DNA from: a virus
Direction: 5' to 3' (one strand)
DNA length: 33,408 nt
IMG/VR virus record: IMGVR_UViG_3300021138_000104
Span: 1-33,408 of that record
Shown: positions 890 through 17,394 of the stretch, piece after piece
How the letters are laid out: the number at the start of each line of letters is the position of its first letter
Position numbering within the stretch: position 1 is the stretch's first letter
Made by a program: the position numbers and the translations under genes
Notes under the pieces: model-generated
The model's input: the letters and a program-made list of their open reading frames with translations, nothing else
The model's database searches: none
What the model was told of the DNA's origin: nothing

Positions 890-1012
890 ATGTGGATAGT
901 TTTAGGATTAATGTGGATAGTTTTAGGATTAATGTTAACCATTGTGATAATTATTTGTTTAGCGTTTTGGGCTGTAACTAGCTTGTTCGACAACATGGAG
1001 GATGGATACTAA
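890..1012 (+). CDS. 40-aa single-span membrane microprotein with tandem duplication
   Basis: A strong purine-rich ribosome-binding site (GGGGGGAG, 879-886) precedes an ATG at 890. The 40-residue product is almost entirely hydrophobic for about 30 residues and ends in a short acidic tail (DNMEDGY), so it should be an inner-membrane protein with one span. The first seven residues, MWIVLGL, are repeated exactly; at DNA level this is a 21-bp perfect tandem duplication (890-910 and 911-931). Its stop overlaps the next gene's ATG (TAATG), which supports real coding. A holin-like or immunity role is possible, but nothing in the sequence shows one. Confidence 0.65.
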   Translation: MWIVLGLMWIVLGLMLTIVIIICLAFWAVTSLFDNMEDGY

Positions 1013-1470
1013 TGAAAACGATTACATTTCTATTGGCTATGACAACTATAGCGGCAGCTCAGGATCTTCCTCAGAAACCTAATCCGGTCTTAACCCCGGG
1101 TGCAATTGATTCGTCAGCAACAAAAGATAAAATCTGTGTGTACGGATACACCAGTCAGGCTGGCGTTCGTAATGTGACACAAGCCACCAAGAATGCCGTC
1201 TTTGCTGAGTATAAGGTTGATAGCAAAGCAGATAAATTTGAGATCGACCACCTTATTTCGTTGGAGCTGGGAGGATCTAACGACATTAAAAACCTATGGC
1301 CGCAAGCCTATAATACCACGCCCCTGAATGCTCATGTTAAAGACGCTCTCGAGAACAAGCTACATGCTTTAATTTGTTCAGGAAAAGCAAACCTTGCTGC
1401 GGTGCAGCATGATATCGCTGACGATTGGACTAAGGCTTACATAAAATACGTTGGACCACTACCAAAATGA
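1012..1470 (+). CDS. Exported HNH-family nuclease
   Basis: This 152-residue protein has a typical Sec signal peptide (about residues 1-17: Lys at 2, hydrophobic core, AAA-Q cleavage region). It is followed by an HNH core around residues 76-110: FEIDHLISLELGGSNDIKN then LWPQ. D79-H80 supply the metal/catalytic pair, with Asn and His residues downstream (N94, H108, H118). C42 and C122 are the only cysteines and could form a disulfide, consistent with periplasmic life. DHLI-LELGG-N-NLWPQ is the signature of a known family of bacterial secreted HNH nucleases. An exported nuclease is unusual for a phage early region and could act on DNA in the periplasm. The ATG overlaps the stop of the membrane microgene. 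Confidence 0.8.
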   Translation: MKTITFLLAMTTIAAAQDLPQKPNPVLTPGAIDSSATKDKICVYGYTSQAGVRNVTQATKNAVFAEYKVDSKADKFEIDHLISLELGGSNDIKNLWPQAYNTTPLNAHVKDALENKLHALICSGKANLAAVQHDIADDWTKAYIKYVGPLPK

Positions 1471-1480
1471 GGAGAGACAA

Positions 1481-1720
1481 ATGACTGACAAATACCCAAA
1501 TAGCGGAATCATAGGGAAGAATGACCGCAAAACGGAAGATAAGCACCCAGATTTGAACGGGAGCGCAACAATCGGAGGCGTTGAGTATTGGCTATCTGGA
1601 TGGCGCAAAGAGAAAAACGGCAAGAATTTCTATACCCTATCTTTCAAGCCTAAAGAAGCTAGTCAATCAACCAGCAAAGCAAGTTCATCATCTGATATAG
1701 ACGAAGACATCCCATTTTAA
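1481..1720 (+). CDS. Small protein with an SSB-like C-terminal tail
   Basis: This 79-residue protein starts at the ATG at 1481 behind GGAGAG; the in-frame TTG at 1451 lies inside the previous gene and is not favoured. The first half (GSATIGGVEYWLSGWRKEKN and a following F-TLSFKPK) looks like a small beta-rich domain seen in other phage proteins. A Ser-rich linker (residues about 64-73) then leads to the terminus DIDEDIPF. An acidic stretch ending Asp-Ile-Pro-Phe is the hallmark of the SSB C-terminal tip, which recruits RecO, PriA, exonuclease I and other partners. It may be a small ssDNA-related protein or a mimic of the SSB tail; no complete OB fold is evident in so short a chain. Confidence 0.7.
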   Translation: MTDKYPNSGIIGKNDRKTEDKHPDLNGSATIGGVEYWLSGWRKEKNGKNFYTLSFKPKEASQSTSKASSSSDIDEDIPF

Positions 1721-1745
1721 TCGCCGCAATTAAATGGAGAAACAA

Positions 1746-1898
1746 ATGTTACCTTTAATAAACTTATCTGACCTTACTGTTAGGCTTATGAAGGCAATAG
1801 AGGAAATGCGGGAGCATGAGCGCATACACGGCCCCATCAGCCAACGTGGTCCAAAGGTTGGGGAAAAACGCTTGACAAAGAAGAGGCAAAAAGACTAG
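1746..1898 (+). CDS. 50-aa basic microprotein
   Basis: An ATG at 1746 follows ATGGAGA (ribosome-binding site) and opens a 50-codon frame. The N-terminal half is an amphipathic/hydrophobic helix (LINLSDLTVRLMKAIEEMRE). The C-terminal half is strongly basic and ends KRLTKKRQKD, a plausible nucleic-acid-binding tail. No homologue is recognised. The last codons contain the -35 element of the promoter proposed for the downstream RNA. Confidence 0.5.
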   Translation: MLPLINLSDLTVRLMKAIEEMREHERIHGPISQRGPKVGEKRLTKKRQKD

Positions 1899-1901
1899 CT
1901 T
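1872..1901 (+). promoter_or_regulatory. Candidate sigma-70 promoter for the structured RNA
   Basis: TTGACA (1872-1877, a perfect -35) is followed 18 bases later by TAGCTT (1896-1901, a weak -10). A start site about 7 bases further on would fall at about 1908, exactly where the first hairpin of the putative RNA begins. The match to the RNA boundary is the main support; the -10 is poor. Confidence 0.4.
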
Positions 1902-1907
1902 AAAAAA

Positions 1908-2311
1908 AGATGGCCTCGGAGAGACTAGCTCGATCCGAGGCCCATCTGAACCGAATGTTTCTCTTGGCGGGGAAACGGTTCAGACGAGAAATGTTATAAA
2001 GTAACATTTTCCGACTGTCCACATTCCCCACCAAATGATCTTTTGGCTTCTGGTTAAAACGGGAGCATCCGGCGGTCGGTAAACGGCGGCGCACCAGAAG
2101 TTCGGGATACCGTGGGAATGTGTCCATGTCCCAACCGCAGCCTGTAGGCGTGAAGCGGGGACACCAGAAGTGTGGAGCTTCTGAAAGTAGCACGTCTGTT
2201 GGTGGGGCCACCTTGCCCATCAGCCCTCTGAAGCGACGGCGGCTCCGCTGGACAGCTATCAGTTGTCAGGACCACCCAGCCTAGCCTTGATTGGCAAAGC
2301 TGGGAATGGTC
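1908..2311 (+). ncRNA. Putative structured non-coding RNA of unknown class
   Basis: No convincing gene occupies 1899-2389, but the stretch is dense in perfect complementary segments. They are: 1912-1920/1934-1942 (9 bp, extendable); 1946-1953/1976-1983 or, as 7 bp plus inner 1957-1961/1972-1976; 1990-1996/2002-2008; 2020-2028/2114-2122 (9 bp, enclosing 2031-2035/2042-2046 and 2047-2054/2093-2100); 2127-2131/2159-2163 plus 2135-2138/2155-2158; 2165-2170/2178-2183; 2201-2204/2209-2212; 2251-2257/2261-2267; 2270-2274/2307-2311 with 2275-2280/2299-2304. Several stems are nested or coaxial, as in large folded RNAs. G-U pairs (2255 with 2263; 2045 and 2046 with 2102 and 2101) favour the plus strand. 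The motif ACCAGAAG occurs twice (2093, 2163), so CTTCTGGT at 2047 could switch partners. It does not match RNase P, tmRNA, 6S or group I intron cores that I know. The 3' end is undefined and may run into the HNH gene leader. Confidence 0.65.
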
Positions 2312-2389
2312 GCCCTTGCCTCTTAGCTCAGACTCACCACAGGACAGAGAGTAGGAATGTTATAGTATTACTTAGTAGGGCGGCGGACA
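2312..2389 (+). other. AT-richer linker between the RNA and the HNH gene
   Basis: This stretch has no strong stem and no terminator-like T-run on the plus strand, so the RNA may be processed from, or read through into, the HNH transcript. GTTATAGTATTACTTAG at 2359-2375 is AT-rich and could hold a weak -10 for the HNH gene, but I see no matching -35. Confidence 0.3.
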
Positions 2390-2791
2390 GTGACGTTACG
2401 GAATGATGCAGTGCAGCATAAAAAGTACGATGAATTTATAAAGTCTGGGGCATGGGCTGAAAAGAAGAAGCTTTTTAGGTCAACCAGAGATTGGCCTATT
2501 TGTTTCAAATGCGGTGCATGGGACACACCAATGGACGTGCATCATTTAACATACAAAAGATTTGGCGGCGCCGAATTGATGGAGGATTTAGAGTATGTTT
2601 GTCGTCCTTGCCATAATGAAATCCATAAAGATTCACTCATTAAAAGGATAATTACGCGCAAAAAAGGGAAAACATTAAAACTCAAATCAAAGGCAGCGAG
2701 AAGGAAAAGAGCAAAGGAAAAACAGAAAATGAAAAAAGAGTACGCCGCCAAAGCTCCAGAAAGGGTTGCTAAATATTTAAGCGAACAATAG
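2390..2791 (+). CDS. HNH endonuclease
   Basis: This 133-residue protein has a complete small HNH fold: a zinc pair C-x2-C (CFKC, residues about 38-41), the VHHLTYKRFGG core (about 50-60), E-LEYVCRPCH with the second C-x2-C, and the terminal metal-binding His in CHNEIHKD. The C-terminal third is a very basic helix rich in Lys/Arg, suited to DNA binding. No AP2 or RuvC domain is present, so it is a free-standing HNH enzyme. Phage relatives serve in homing, host DNA cleavage or packaging. No ATG exists in frame near the start; GTG at 2390, or GTG at 2411 behind CGGA, are the options. It lies directly behind the structured RNA, which may be chance, a leader or a mobile unit. Confidence 0.85.
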   Translation: MTLRNDAVQHKKYDEFIKSGAWAEKKKLFRSTRDWPICFKCGAWDTPMDVHHLTYKRFGGAELMEDLEYVCRPCHNEIHKDSLIKRIITRKKGKTLKLKSKAARRKRAKEKQKMKKEYAAKAPERVAKYLSEQ

Positions 2792-3316: not shown

Positions 3317-3684
3317 AAACGGGATTGGATTACTTTCTGGCAGACGTAAAAACTCTGACCAAGCAAAGGCCACCATACAACGATGCGTTTACATCTAGGT
3401 GCGTCAATGTCCTTGGCACTGCAATAACAATTATAGAGGGGTTAAAGATTGTGATCGACAAGCAAAAAGCTGAGATTGACCATATCAAGGGAGTTAAATT
3501 TGAAAGGATTAAGGGAATCAAGGCAAGCACAAACTTAGAAAGGGAAGCTGTAATTGTGTCCGACTTTAAGTCCGGCATGAAGAAGGGGCATATCGCGGCA
3601 AAGTTCAAGGTAACTCCTGCCAGAATATCCCAAATCCTTACTCGCAACGGCTTCCCGCCTGTGCCGTATGAAGGTCGGAAATGA
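3313..3684 (+). CDS. HTH protein upstream of the helicase
   Basis: This 123-residue protein starts at the ATG at 3313, which overlaps the previous stop (ATGA); the in-frame TTG at 3295 is less likely. The central part is a long Lys-rich helix. Residues about 91-117 (DFKSGMKKGHIAAKFKVTPA followed by RISQILTRNG) form a helix-turn-helix of the resolvase/sigma-region-4 type, so it probably binds DNA. It may regulate the operon or help replication initiation. Its stop overlaps the helicase ATG. Confidence 0.6.
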   Translation: MKTGLDYFLADVKTLTKQRPPYNDAFTSRCVNVLGTAITIIEGLKIVIDKQKAEIDHIKGVKFERIKGIKASTNLEREAVIVSDFKSGMKKGHIAAKFKVTPARISQILTRNGFPPVPYEGRK

Positions 3685-5183
3685 AACACGAACTGCGCGA
3701 TTATCAGCAGAAGGCGATTGATAATCTAAGAGCCTCGATTGCTTCCGGCAATAAGCGAGTGGTTCTTCAGGTTCCAACTGGCGGTGGTAAGACAGCCATC
3801 GCCGGAGCAATCATTGCATCCGCTTTAGATAGGGGTAAGAGGGCTATCTTTACTGTTCCGGCCCTGTCTCTCATTACTCAAACGGTGAGTAGCTTTGAGC
3901 GGGATGGCGTTGATGAGATCGGCGTTATCCAAGGCCAACACTGGATGTACGATGCTGACGCTCCAGTCCAGATATGCTCCGTGCAGACGCTTGCTCGGCG
4001 GGGTGTTCCAAAGGCCGATCTGGTGATCGTGGACGAGGCTCATGTCATGTTTGACTTGTATTCTCGGTGGTTCAACGATCCTGAATGGAAGGATGTGCCG
4101 ATCATTGGCCTGTCTGCTACGCCGTGGACGAAGGGGCTGGGCAAGCTATACGAAGATCTGGTGGTGGGAACCACTACGCAAGAGCTAATAGACAAGGGCT
4201 ATCTTTCAAAGTTCAGGGTGTTTGCCCCATCAAAGCCCGATCTGGAGAATATCAAAACCGTTGCCGGAGATTTCGATCTCAATGAATTGGGCAACACAAT
4301 GAACAAAGCGCATCTGGTCGCTGATATCGTCGAGACTTGGATCAAGCGCGGAGAAGATCGCCCGACCCTGTGCTTCGCCGTAAACCGCGCCCATGCCGCT
4401 AATATCTGCGATAGCTTCAACAAAGCTGGCATCCCTGCGGCCTATGTCGATGGTGAGACGCCGCTTGATGAGCGGGATGATCTCGCCAAACAGTTCAAAA
4501 ACGGAGATTACAAAGTCATTTGCAATGTTGGCGTTATGACAACGGGTGTGGATTTGCCATTTGTGTCTTGCCTAATCCTCGCAAGACCCACCAAATCTGA
4601 AATGCTTTACTGCCAGATCACTGGACGCGGCCTTAGAACCTTTGCTGGGAAAGAAGACTGCCTCATTCTAGACCACTCGGATACAACGGCGCGGCTTGGT
4701 TTTGTTACTGATATCCATCACATCAAGCTCGACGATGGCAGGAAGAAGTTAAGCGTATCCAATAATCGAAAACGCGATGAGCCGCTCCCAAAGGTTTGCC
4801 CATCCTGCACGTTTGTAAAACCAGCAAAGATTAAGGTCTGCCCTGCCTGTGGGTTTGATCCTAAGCCAAGGGCGAATGTATTCTACGCAAGTGGTGATCT
4901 AAATGAGGTAACAGGCAAGGGAGCTAATAAGACATACGGGATTATCATGTCGTCCTTTGAGGAAAAGGAAGAATTCTATCGGGAATTGCTGGGTTTTTGC
5001 GAGGAAAAAAACTACAAGCGCGGCTGGGCTTTCCATCAATTTAAGGATCGCTACTCTGAATATCCGGATAAAGAATTTATAACCATCCCGCTTATGCCAT
5101 CGATCAAAACCAAAAACTATCTAAAGAATTCGTGGATCAAACGCCGAAAGGCCGAGGCTAAAATGGCTGGGGGCTTCGTATGA
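3681..5183 (+). CDS. SF2 DEAH-type helicase with C-terminal zinc finger
   Basis: This 500-residue protein shows the superfamily 2 motifs in order: Q-like YQQKAI (8-13), motif I PTGGGKT (32-38), motif II DEAH (119-121 region, VIVDEAHV), motif III SAT (145-147), motif V NVGVMTTGVDLP (282-293) and motif VI QITGRGLR (312-319). A four-cysteine knuckle follows (C373, C376, C387, C390). This layout is that of the phage UvsW/RecG-like DEAD-DEAH helicases that unwind branched DNA at replication forks. The primase follows with a 4-bp overlap, which supports a replication role. The C-terminal 100 residues are not recognised. Confidence 0.92.
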   Translation: MKHELRDYQQKAIDNLRASIASGNKRVVLQVPTGGGKTAIAGAIIASALDRGKRAIFTVPALSLITQTVSSFERDGVDEIGVIQGQHWMYDADAPVQICSVQTLARRGVPKADLVIVDEAHVMFDLYSRWFNDPEWKDVPIIGLSATPWTKGLGKLYEDLVVGTTTQELIDKGYLSKFRVFAPSKPDLENIKTVAGDFDLNELGNTMNKAHLVADIVETWIKRGEDRPTLCFAVNRAHAANICDSFNKAGIPAAYVDGETPLDERDDLAKQFKNGDYKVICNVGVMTTGVDLPFVSCLILARPTKSEMLYCQITGRGLRTFAGKEDCLILDHSDTTARLGFVTDIHHIKLDDGRKKLSVSNNRKRDEPLPKVCPSCTFVKPAKIKVCPACGFDPKPRANVFYASGDLNEVTGKGANKTYGIIMSSFEEKEEFYRELLGFCEEKNYKRGWAFHQFKDRYSEYPDKEFITIPLMPSIKTKNYLKNSWIKRRKAEAKMAGGFV

Positions 5184-6358: not shown

Positions 6359-6557
6359 TTCTTGCCCCCTGCCTTGTCAGATCGACAAGATCAATTTGCT
6401 TCGATTGATCGCCAAACAATCCACCTACTTCACGTTGAACAACCTTGGGTGTAAGCTTCCGATCTGCTAAACGCTGGGCGTGTTCTTTCATGCTGATAGG
6501 CTCCGCCCCTGAAATTGTGGCTTGCCCGTCCGGCTTCATGGTGCTTTTACTCATCAT
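6348..6557 (-). CDS. Hypothetical 69-aa protein
   Basis: The frame begins MMSKSTMKPDGQATISGAEP and ends in the HTH gene. Two adjacent ATGs (6557 and 6554) follow GGGGTACTG; either could be used. It is hydrophilic, with a probable helix around residues 23-50 (KEHAQRLADRKLTPKVVQRE). No known motif. It overlaps the gene on either side by about 11 bp, so it is embedded in a coupled operon. Confidence 0.55.
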   Translation of the reverse strand: MMSKSTMKPDGQATISGAEPISMKEHAQRLADRKLTPKVVQREVGGLFGDQSKQIDLVDLTRQGARNDT

Positions 6558-6798
6558 CAGTACCCCATCTAATCATGTTTTCGCCATCAACCAGAACAGC
6601 ATCGACTGATCCACTTAAACCTACGCAATCAAGCGCCGCAATAACCGCTTGCATCGCGTCACAAAGCACCCCGCCATTAAATCCCCATCTTTCCACTTCG
6701 TCACTGTGAGCGGGTGCATCGCATACATAGAGCGCCTCAGCGGCCTTTGCTTCGCCATACGATTTGTAATATTCCGTGTTCCAGAATTGTAATTGCAT
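6547..6798 (-). CDS. Hypothetical 83-aa protein with shared leader
   Basis: MQLQFWNTEYYKSYGEAKAA starts a compact mixed helix/strand protein with Cys at 26 and 46 and no recognised motif. The start is fixed by the operon's conserved leader AGGAGAACCACACA directly upstream of the ATG (plus-strand 6799-6812). It is acidic at both ends (SDEVERW, WGTDDE). Function unknown. Confidence 0.6.
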   Translation of the reverse strand: MQLQFWNTEYYKSYGEAKAAEALYVCDAPAHSDEVERWGFNGGVLCDAMQAVIAALDCVGLSGSVDAVLVDGENMIRWGTDDE

Positions 6799-6814
6799 TG
6801 TGTGGTTCTCCTAA

Positions 6815-7243
6815 TTAAAACACGCGAACGGCGTTGCTAAGCTTTTGATTTAAGCCGTATTCTGTGACGGTCGAAACGTCCTGAAAGGGTGCAGCCTGTT
6901 CGAACTGCGCCACTGGCTGGCTCTTGCTGTCGTACTTAACCGGCGCTTCCATCTCAGCCTCAGACCACAAAGCAAGGCCATCTTCGACCTTGTAAGCGTA
7001 ATCCGTTGCAGCCTGATCGGTATCATCGAACCGACAAACAACTTCAAAATAAGTGCCAAAATCATGGCTTTCGCGCTTGATGGAAAGATAAGCGTTCTCC
7101 GGCTCCGGCCCGTATACCTTGCGCAGCGCTTCGATATAGTAGGAGCATTCCAGCTTATTGAGGCGCTCCGCCCCTTCTGTCACGCCAGTTTGAGCGCAAG
7201 CTTCATCCGCTGGGGTTGGGCCAATGTATAAAATGTCAAGCAT
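6815..7243 (-). CDS. Hypothetical 142-aa protein with shared leader
   Basis: MLDILYIGPTPADEACAQTG opens an acidic protein. Residues about 30-90 hold an alternating pattern (ECSYYIEALRKVYG, NAYLSIKRESHDFGTYFEVV, CRFDD) like a small alpha/beta fold. The N-terminal part GPTPADE-CAQ-G resembles early-phage proteins that I cannot name. The ATG follows GGAGAACCACACA. No membrane span or catalytic motif is seen. Confidence 0.6.
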   Translation of the reverse strand: MLDILYIGPTPADEACAQTGVTEGAERLNKLECSYYIEALRKVYGPEPENAYLSIKRESHDFGTYFEVVCRFDDTDQAATDYAYKVEDGLALWSEAEMEAPVKYDSKSQPVAQFEQAAPFQDVSTVTEYGLNQKLSNAVRVF

Positions 7244-16774: not shown

Positions 16775-17012
16775 AATCCCACTAATTGAACGGGTTCTCA
16801 TTGCGTTGAAAAAAGAGCAAAAAGAATTTGCTGACAGCGCAATGAGAAGCCCCGCTCACCGAGACGCCTTTGAGTATGGGCGTGTGACCGGACATTATTC
16901 CGGATTGATGAAAGCCGTTGAGACCATCGAAATGGCTTTGAATGTAGAGAGCGAGGATGACGATCATGGTTACAACCGCCGTGGTGAAACTTCCTTCATT
17001 ATCAGAGATTGA
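16755..17012 (+). CDS. Hypothetical 85-aa helical protein
   Basis: GTG at 16755 behind AAAGGACTT overlaps the previous gene by 20 bp and gives [20 protein letters not shown] and a helical body ([29 protein letters not shown]). It ends in an acidic, disordered tail. The YGR-TG-Y-GL-KA-E-I pattern is one I associate with small uncharacterised proteins between portal and capsid genes of phages. Its stop lies within the next gene. Confidence 0.55.
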
Positions 17013-17394
17013 TGAAGCGTTTCCAAATGTAAACTTTGGCATTAGCCCAACTGGATCAAGAGTTTTGGTTCAAATCAGGCGTCCAAAGACAAAAATCGGG
17101 AGTATTATACTTTCGGATTATACTAAAGATGCGGAGCAAGATAACACCCAAGTGGCAAAAGTTGTCTCTGTAGGGCCGTTGGCTTTTCGCAATAGAAATA
17201 CTATGGAGCCGTGGCCGGAGGGGGCTTGGTACACCAAAGATGACTTTGTATTCGTTTCGAAGTATGGTGGAGCAAGATGGCGTCGGGAAATCCCCGGTAC
17301 TAAAGGTGAAAAGGTTGAATTCGTGATCTTTAACGACCTCGATATTGTTGGCATCGTTGACGGCGACCCACTCGCCGTTCAAGCCTATATTTGA
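16966..17394 (+). CDS. GroES-like co-chaperonin
   Basis: This 142-residue protein shows the Cpn10 pattern: P-T-G-SRVLVQIRRPKTKIGSII (residues 28-48), LSDYTKDAEQDNTQVAKVVS VG (49-70, split here), then WYTKDDFVFVSKYGGARW (88-105) and FVIFNDLDIVGIV (119-131), matching GroES P-x-GDRVLV, GGIILPD, VVAVG and G-VLF-KY-G segments. The mobile-loop region lies around residues 38-58. By analogy with T4 gp31 it would cap host GroEL to fold the capsid or another large protein. Start at the ATG at 16966 (GAGG eight bases upstream) is preferred over 16957. It lies just before scaffold and capsid genes. Confidence 0.8.
   Translation: MVTTAVVKLPSLSEIDEAFPNVNFGISPTGSRVLVQIRRPKTKIGSIILSDYTKDAEQDNTQVAKVVSVGPLAFRNRNTMEPWPEGAWYTKDDFVFVSKYGGARWRREIPGTKGEKVEFVIFNDLDIVGIVDGDPLAVQAYI

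Follow-up and report, generated by a model that had tools for sequence, protein, structure and literature searches.

ROOL is a large, elaborate RNA of phages and prophages that contains pseudoknots, is often encoded near tRNA genes and has no known function (PMC12286853). GOLLD is a large phage RNA, also of unknown function, that often exceeds 800 nt; its 3′ part is conserved and its 5′ part less so (PMC12286853). The RNA described here is encoded in a 33,408-base virus record (the window, meaning the whole stretch of DNA that was analyzed) and belongs to a family that is likewise large, knotted, and phage-encoded. It shares with GOLLD the division into one conserved and one less conserved part, but it is about 450 to 500 nt long, its conserved part is at the 5′ side, its 3′ part is exchangeable, and it has no Rfam match, the 3′ region included. 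It differs from ROOL in that no Rfam model for that RNA matches in the window or the homologues and in that the window has no tRNA. GOLLD RNAs are encoded by phages, often near tRNAs. The new RNA is phage-encoded and, in contrast to the window, some of its loci have tRNAs within about 1.6 kb: these lie about 1.5 kb upstream of the RNA in L161 (1344–1515) and L163 (11238–11409), and locus L167 also has tRNAs. Among known kinds, GOLLD and ROOL come nearest, and the new family is comparable in kind without being a member. The resemblance to them proposed in a sequence-only reading of the window holds for the kind of RNA, but not for membership.

The packaging RNA (pRNA) of phage phi29 is about 174 nt. 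The new RNA is similar in that it is phage-borne and, in most members, located near packaging genes, but it is about 450 nt, is accessory, is found in the early region of four members, and matches nothing in Rfam. Its sporadic presence and the exchange of its core beside a near-identical portal gene argue against a part of the packaging motor. The HEARO/OMEGA systems resemble the window in that an HNH gene adjoins a structured RNA. However, the window encodes its HNH domain as a stand-alone protein of 133 aa in which PF01844 is the only Pfam match, no IsrB/IscB-type nuclease is present, HNH-type genes adjoin few members, and there is no Rfam match. Group I and group II introns are distinguished from the new RNA by the lack of an Rfam match and, in the loci examined, by its intergenic position behind a promoter-like motif.

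The window locus contains no convincing gene between a small ORF ending at 1898 and an HNH ORF starting at 2390, which bears out its description as a gap without a credible gene in a phage early region; the early-region location of the window copy is likewise supported. The features of the locus are the following.

1872–1901, plus strand: sigma70-like promoter, with the −35 element TTGACA at 1872–1877, the −10 element TAGCTT at 1896–1901, and a spacing of 18
1902–2350, plus strand: structured RNA of type A, recognized by its fold z-score, 24 distinct homologues, covariation, and the lack of an Rfam match
2390–2791, plus strand: ORF for an HNH endonuclease (PF01844, E = 2e-5; phrog_144), a neighbor outside the RNA
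3681–5183, plus strand: DEAD/DEAH helicase gene (Pfam), a neighbor of the RNA in the window, L003, L004, and L151

The RNA is about 450 nt (450–500). It lies within the interval 1899–2389 that the sequence-only reading had assigned to it, but sequence conservation runs from about 1902 and fades after about 2347 rather than continuing to 2389; the 3′ end is placed, with uncertainty, at about 2350. The plus strand of 1899–2395 folds with −201 kcal/mol (z = −5.3), and 0 of 100 dinucleotide shuffles were as stable. The minus strand of the same gap also folds well (z = −4.6 against dinucleotide shuffles), and single-sequence folds of two type B members are only mildly unusual (z = −1.6 and −1.8). 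Many indels among the members are not multiples of three (1, 2, 8, and 10 bases) and no reading frame stays open in all of them, which indicates that the RNA region is not a protein gene.

Twenty-four distinct homologues were collected from viral contigs after removal of copies. A 5′ domain of two hairpins is common to all members, and the cores are of two types: type A comprises the window and 8 others, and type B comprises the 15 others. Three routes and a last scan led to these members. The downstream helicase (window 3681–5183) was used as bait in route (i) and retrieved L003, L004, and L005, which have two similar hairpins in the gap before the helicase. Route (ii) used the hairpin-2 motif and then short core motifs, and retrieved L045, L056, L058, L059, L063, L065, L072, and L073; the core patterns contain neither the promoter nor the 5′ domain. 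A portal alignment was the basis of route (iii), which gave L077, L113, and L151, where the RNA was found afterwards. Selection by routes (i) and (iii) is independent of the RNA sequence. The last scan used a 5′-domain pattern and added L158–L174; conservation of the 5′ domain is partly built into these members, and their promoters and cores lie outside the pattern. Model R1 detects L003, L004, L113, and L151, which were absent from its training, at E-values of 1e-4 to 2e-6, and model R2 detects the held-out L063 at E = 3e-50. The type A core model gave no credible match to type B with filters off, and homology between the two types beyond the 5′ domain is unsupported. Types B1 and B2 have short motifs and aligned helices in common and may represent a single fold that has diverged strongly. 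Four further candidates were rejected: L010 has the appearance of coding sequence, as do L085, L108, and L081, which a folding survey upstream of portals had flagged.

Comparison with Rfam, which the sequence-only reading had proposed as a check, leaves the RNA without a match at gathering and at permissive thresholds. Rfam 15 has no match to it at gathering thresholds in a search of the whole window and gives only two chance matches at E up to 10 in window 1700–2600. Among the homologous loci, seven have no match (E up to 1) and seven more match tRNAs only (E up to 2). Neither ARAGORN nor Rfam finds a tmRNA or tRNA in the window. DNA matches between named phages and the window are of chance length only, three homologues have none with named phages, and plasmids have none with the window. 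Searches of bacterial and archaeal genomes with two core patterns gave no match with one and three matches without a recognizable RNA by eye with the other, and the HNH protein as bait gave one distant match at which the RNA is absent. No description of the RNA was found in the open-access literature, a coverage that omits most subscription papers. These results, together with the fold z-score of −5.3 and the covariation, confirm that window 1902 to about 2350 is a member of an uncatalogued family of structured RNAs that is absent from Rfam, and the proposal of a large structured RNA of no recognized class is upheld.

Covariation in type A was counted in nine sequences (window, L045, L063, L056, L074, L058, L065, L073, and L151) with a structure of 52 explicit pairs written by hand. 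In this set, 97.2% of cells are paired and 15 pairs have double changes; there are 32 double-change cells, compared with 9.8 in shuffles and 1 to 3 with slid partners. The type B structure consists of 43 pairs predicted from its own alignment and was counted in 11 sequences. It has 95.2% of cells paired, a percentage favored by derivation from the same alignment, and 54 double-change cells compared with 16.9 in shuffles and at most 13 with slid partners; the double changes are still informative. Both counts are based on small sets of sequences, and the shuffle controls ignore relatedness, whereas the slid controls keep it. Covarying stems had been named beforehand as support for an RNA, and compensatory changes are strong in both the hand-written type A pairs and type B. 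The type A pairs contain 38 G-U cells and 6 A-C cells, and this excess identifies the plus strand as the RNA, as had been read from the window sequence. These counts show computationally that selection acts on structure at the RNA level, with the strand fixed.

The type A structure in the window has the following parts.

1909–1945, plus strand: hairpin P1, 1909–1919 paired with 1935–1945 with one bulged base, and an inner GAG/CUC at 1921–1931
1946–1983, plus strand: hairpin P2 (CUGAACCG/CGGUUCAG), 1946–1953 paired with 1976–1983, with GGCGGG in the loop
1969–2029, plus strand: candidate pseudoknot PK1, P2 loop 1969–1974 with 2024–2029
1988–2011, plus strand: hairpin P3, specific to the window and located between the two halves of PK1
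2047–2100, plus strand: P4, 2047–2054 paired with 2093–2100, with covariation
2114–2132, plus strand: candidate pseudoknot PK2, GGGA 2114–2117 with UCCC 2129–2132
2120–2164, plus strand: P5, 2120–2125 paired with 2159–2164, and P5a, 2135–2138 paired with 2155–2158
2146–2197, plus strand: long-range helix P8, 2146–2152 paired with 2191–2197, crossing P5
2165–2183, plus strand: hairpin P6, 2165–2170 paired with 2178–2183, from RNAalifold pairs with compensatory changes
2199–2223, plus strand: hairpin P7, 2199–2206 paired with 2216–2223
2270–2311, plus strand: P11, GACCA 2270–2274 with UGGUC 2307–2311 and CCCAGC 2275–2280 with GCUGGG 2299–2304

P1 is part of the 5′ domain common to types A and B and exhibits GC/AU and CG/UA exchanges. 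The P2 helix is nearly invariant and its upper part covaries. In the core, P4 encloses an invariant CGG/CCG at 2060–2071 and the pairing 2075–2078/2084–2087. P5 and P5a are 100% paired in the nine sequences, with CG/UA, GC/AU, and GC/CG double changes, and P8 retains 7 of 7 pairs in 9 of 9 sequences, double changes included. The P5 and P8 region is a pseudoknot because the two helices cross and both vary with the pairing kept. P7 has changes on both sides in six of its eight pairs; P11 has 98% of cells paired and two pairs with double changes. PK1 is a candidate only, convincing by eye and not statistically secure: a similar pairing occurs at a similar offset in most members and 1 of 300 permutations is as good, but most of the helices fall short of significance when taken singly, with a combined p of 0.066 in a strict test. 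PK2 is mostly invariant and has one double change, in L151.

The 9-bp helix 2020–2028/2114–2122 of the sequence-only reading is an exact complement in the window, but the complement is absent from the other eight type A homologues, and the helix competes with P5. The conserved alternative is 2120–2125/2159–2164, which covaries and re-uses some of the same bases. RNAalifold pairs that link the −35 region or the −10 element to the transcript were dropped as promoter sequence, and manual placements of P6, P9, and P10, in which pairs are lost in several rows (through alignment slips for P6), were excluded from the counts. Two copies of a short motif (CTGGACAG / CAGGACAG) are present in the 3′ part of type A, at about 2247–2254 and 2340–2347 of the window, and both switch together to CTGATCA in L045 and L063.

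The −35 TTGACA that had been placed at 1872 is exact at 1872–1877. The window promoter combines this perfect −35 with a weak −10, scores 9/12 overall, and is missed by a stricter scan. TTGAC is aligned in 8 of the 8 promoter regions of A2. A TTGACN...TATNNT-like motif directly upstream scores at least 9/12 in 22 of 24 homologues, compared with 6.8% of random stretches of the same loci; the motif is partly common by descent, and the 22 members are not 22 independent observations. Several promoters score 11/12, and those of L003 and L004 score only 8/12. This analysis shows computationally that a conserved promoter-like motif precedes the family RNAs.

The cores differ between phages that are otherwise almost the same. 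L077 (type B1) and L172 (type B2) have flanks that are 98% identical upstream and 98.7% identical over 1.5 kb downstream, whereas their cores have no BLAST match and 49% global identity. The same pattern is found in L164 and L169, with flanks 99% and 92% identical and unlike cores. L072 (type A) and L172 have 89% in common in the promoter and 5′ domain, and their cores are unlike. These comparisons show computationally a recent exchange of the RNA core between near-identical phages.

Of the 24 members, 18 are followed by the portal as next conserved gene, 4 (window, L003, L004, and L151) by the helicase, and 1 (L113) by terminase genes; the remaining member, L163, is cut off by the contig end. 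Portal-linked members lie between terminase and portal, 519 to 1125 nt before the portal start. The 5′ domain occurs in 13 of 49 records searched whole, one match each, and these 49 include some chosen for carrying it. The RNA is rarer still among portal relatives retrieved without reference to it, with its absence uncertain in contigs that are often incomplete. The computational survey shows an accessory distribution of the RNA and a position that changes between genomic slots. In L079, the slot upstream of the portal, which is occupied by the RNA in relatives, contains a tRNA-Gly gene (1866–1940). Endonuclease-type ORFs lie directly 3′ of the RNA in the window (HNH, 2390–2791) and L077 (HNH, about 6508–6961), and L161 has a NUMOD3 protein with a possible GIY-YIG-like start at this place; such adjoining ORFs might drive exchange of the RNA locus. 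Window 1012–1470 encodes a 152-aa protein with a signal-like N terminus and a sub-threshold match to PF13930 (DNA/RNA non-specific endonuclease), and a relative of it lies just upstream of the RNA in L065. A GroES-like co-chaperonin (PF00166) is encoded at window 16957–17394 and is also annotated in MW202675, a named phage with a portal related to those of RNA-bearing loci.

The explanation that we consider likely is an accessory phage RNA of about 450 nt, from a family not in Rfam, that is transcribed independently and acts in trans. Transcription would start at the phage-borne sigma70-like promoter, so that host RNA polymerase would make the RNA. The RNA would fold into the common two-hairpin 5′ domain and a knotted core, and would act in trans, as RNA or as an RNA-protein particle, without regulating its neighbors. 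We infer expression as a discrete transcript and action in trans. The partner that the RNA meets would be variable and would most likely be a host factor or a defense of the host or of a rival phage; such a partner is suggested by the accessory nature of the RNA, its presence in several genomic slots, and the swapping of its core between near-identical phages. The role at a host or defense interface is the least certain step and is put forward tentatively, at somewhat less than an even chance, by analogy with other phage cargo genes that are also swapped between near-identical genomes.

The portal as next conserved gene in 18 of 24 members could mean a functional link, and this counts against the explanation. 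In every locus the RNA lies upstream of a gene on the same strand, which would agree with a cis-acting leader, a long 5′ untranslated region controlling the next gene (portal, helicase, or HNH). A scan of the 3′ side in three loci revealed no intrinsic terminator, and the RNA could therefore be part of a longer message. We consider a leader unlikely: the downstream genes differ between loci, L045 has a separate promoter-like site between RNA and portal, and TTGCCT..TATAGT is seen by eye at this place in type B2 loci. A leader of the HNH gene in particular, as suggested by the sequence-only reading, does not stand, with that gene missing at the corresponding place in most homologues and the RNA preceding at least three kinds of gene. 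The location between terminase and portal in 18 members would also suit a packaging RNA, which like phi29 pRNA would belong structurally to the portal-bound motor that packages DNA. The earlier suggestion of such a role is weakened and this explanation is improbable, with the RNA not found in most phages that have homologous portals, an early-region location in the window, L003, L004, and L151, no match to a packaging RNA in Rfam, and cores that are unlike although the downstream DNA, portal gene included, is 98.7% identical.

A divergent intron or ribozyme spread as a mobile or catalytic element by neighboring homing-type endonucleases would account for the changing position, the core exchange, and the HNH ORFs directly 3′ in the window and L077 with the NUMOD3 protein in L161. 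However, the RNA interrupts no gene, has its own promoter, and matches no Rfam intron family, and most members have no adjoining endonuclease, which makes such an element very improbable; the endonucleases may still explain how cores are exchanged. An explanation at the level of DNA, for example a replication origin, or by stems that arose by chance, is strongly disfavored and has the least to be said for it. The minus strand also folds well and the window copy lies in an early replication region, but the ratio of G-U to A-C cells and the compensatory changes fit a plus-strand RNA, and the slid controls collapse.

Large phage RNAs known so far are very few, and what they do is an open question; the family adds 24 distinct members and is absent from Rfam 15. 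Covariation is present in two core types, and the compact size suits probing and cryo-EM. No annotated phage record with the RNA was found, and a new Rfam entry could start from the present alignments. The exchange of cores between phages that are otherwise nearly identical opens a testable genetic route to the role of such RNAs. It is conceivable, though we would not favor it over its negation, that the family is polymorphic, with a conserved promoter and 5′ domain joined to alternative knotted cores as swapped cassettes, each core specific for a different host factor, defense system, or competitor. If this is true, the swapped cores would be the RNA counterpart of swappable anti-defense or immunity genes.
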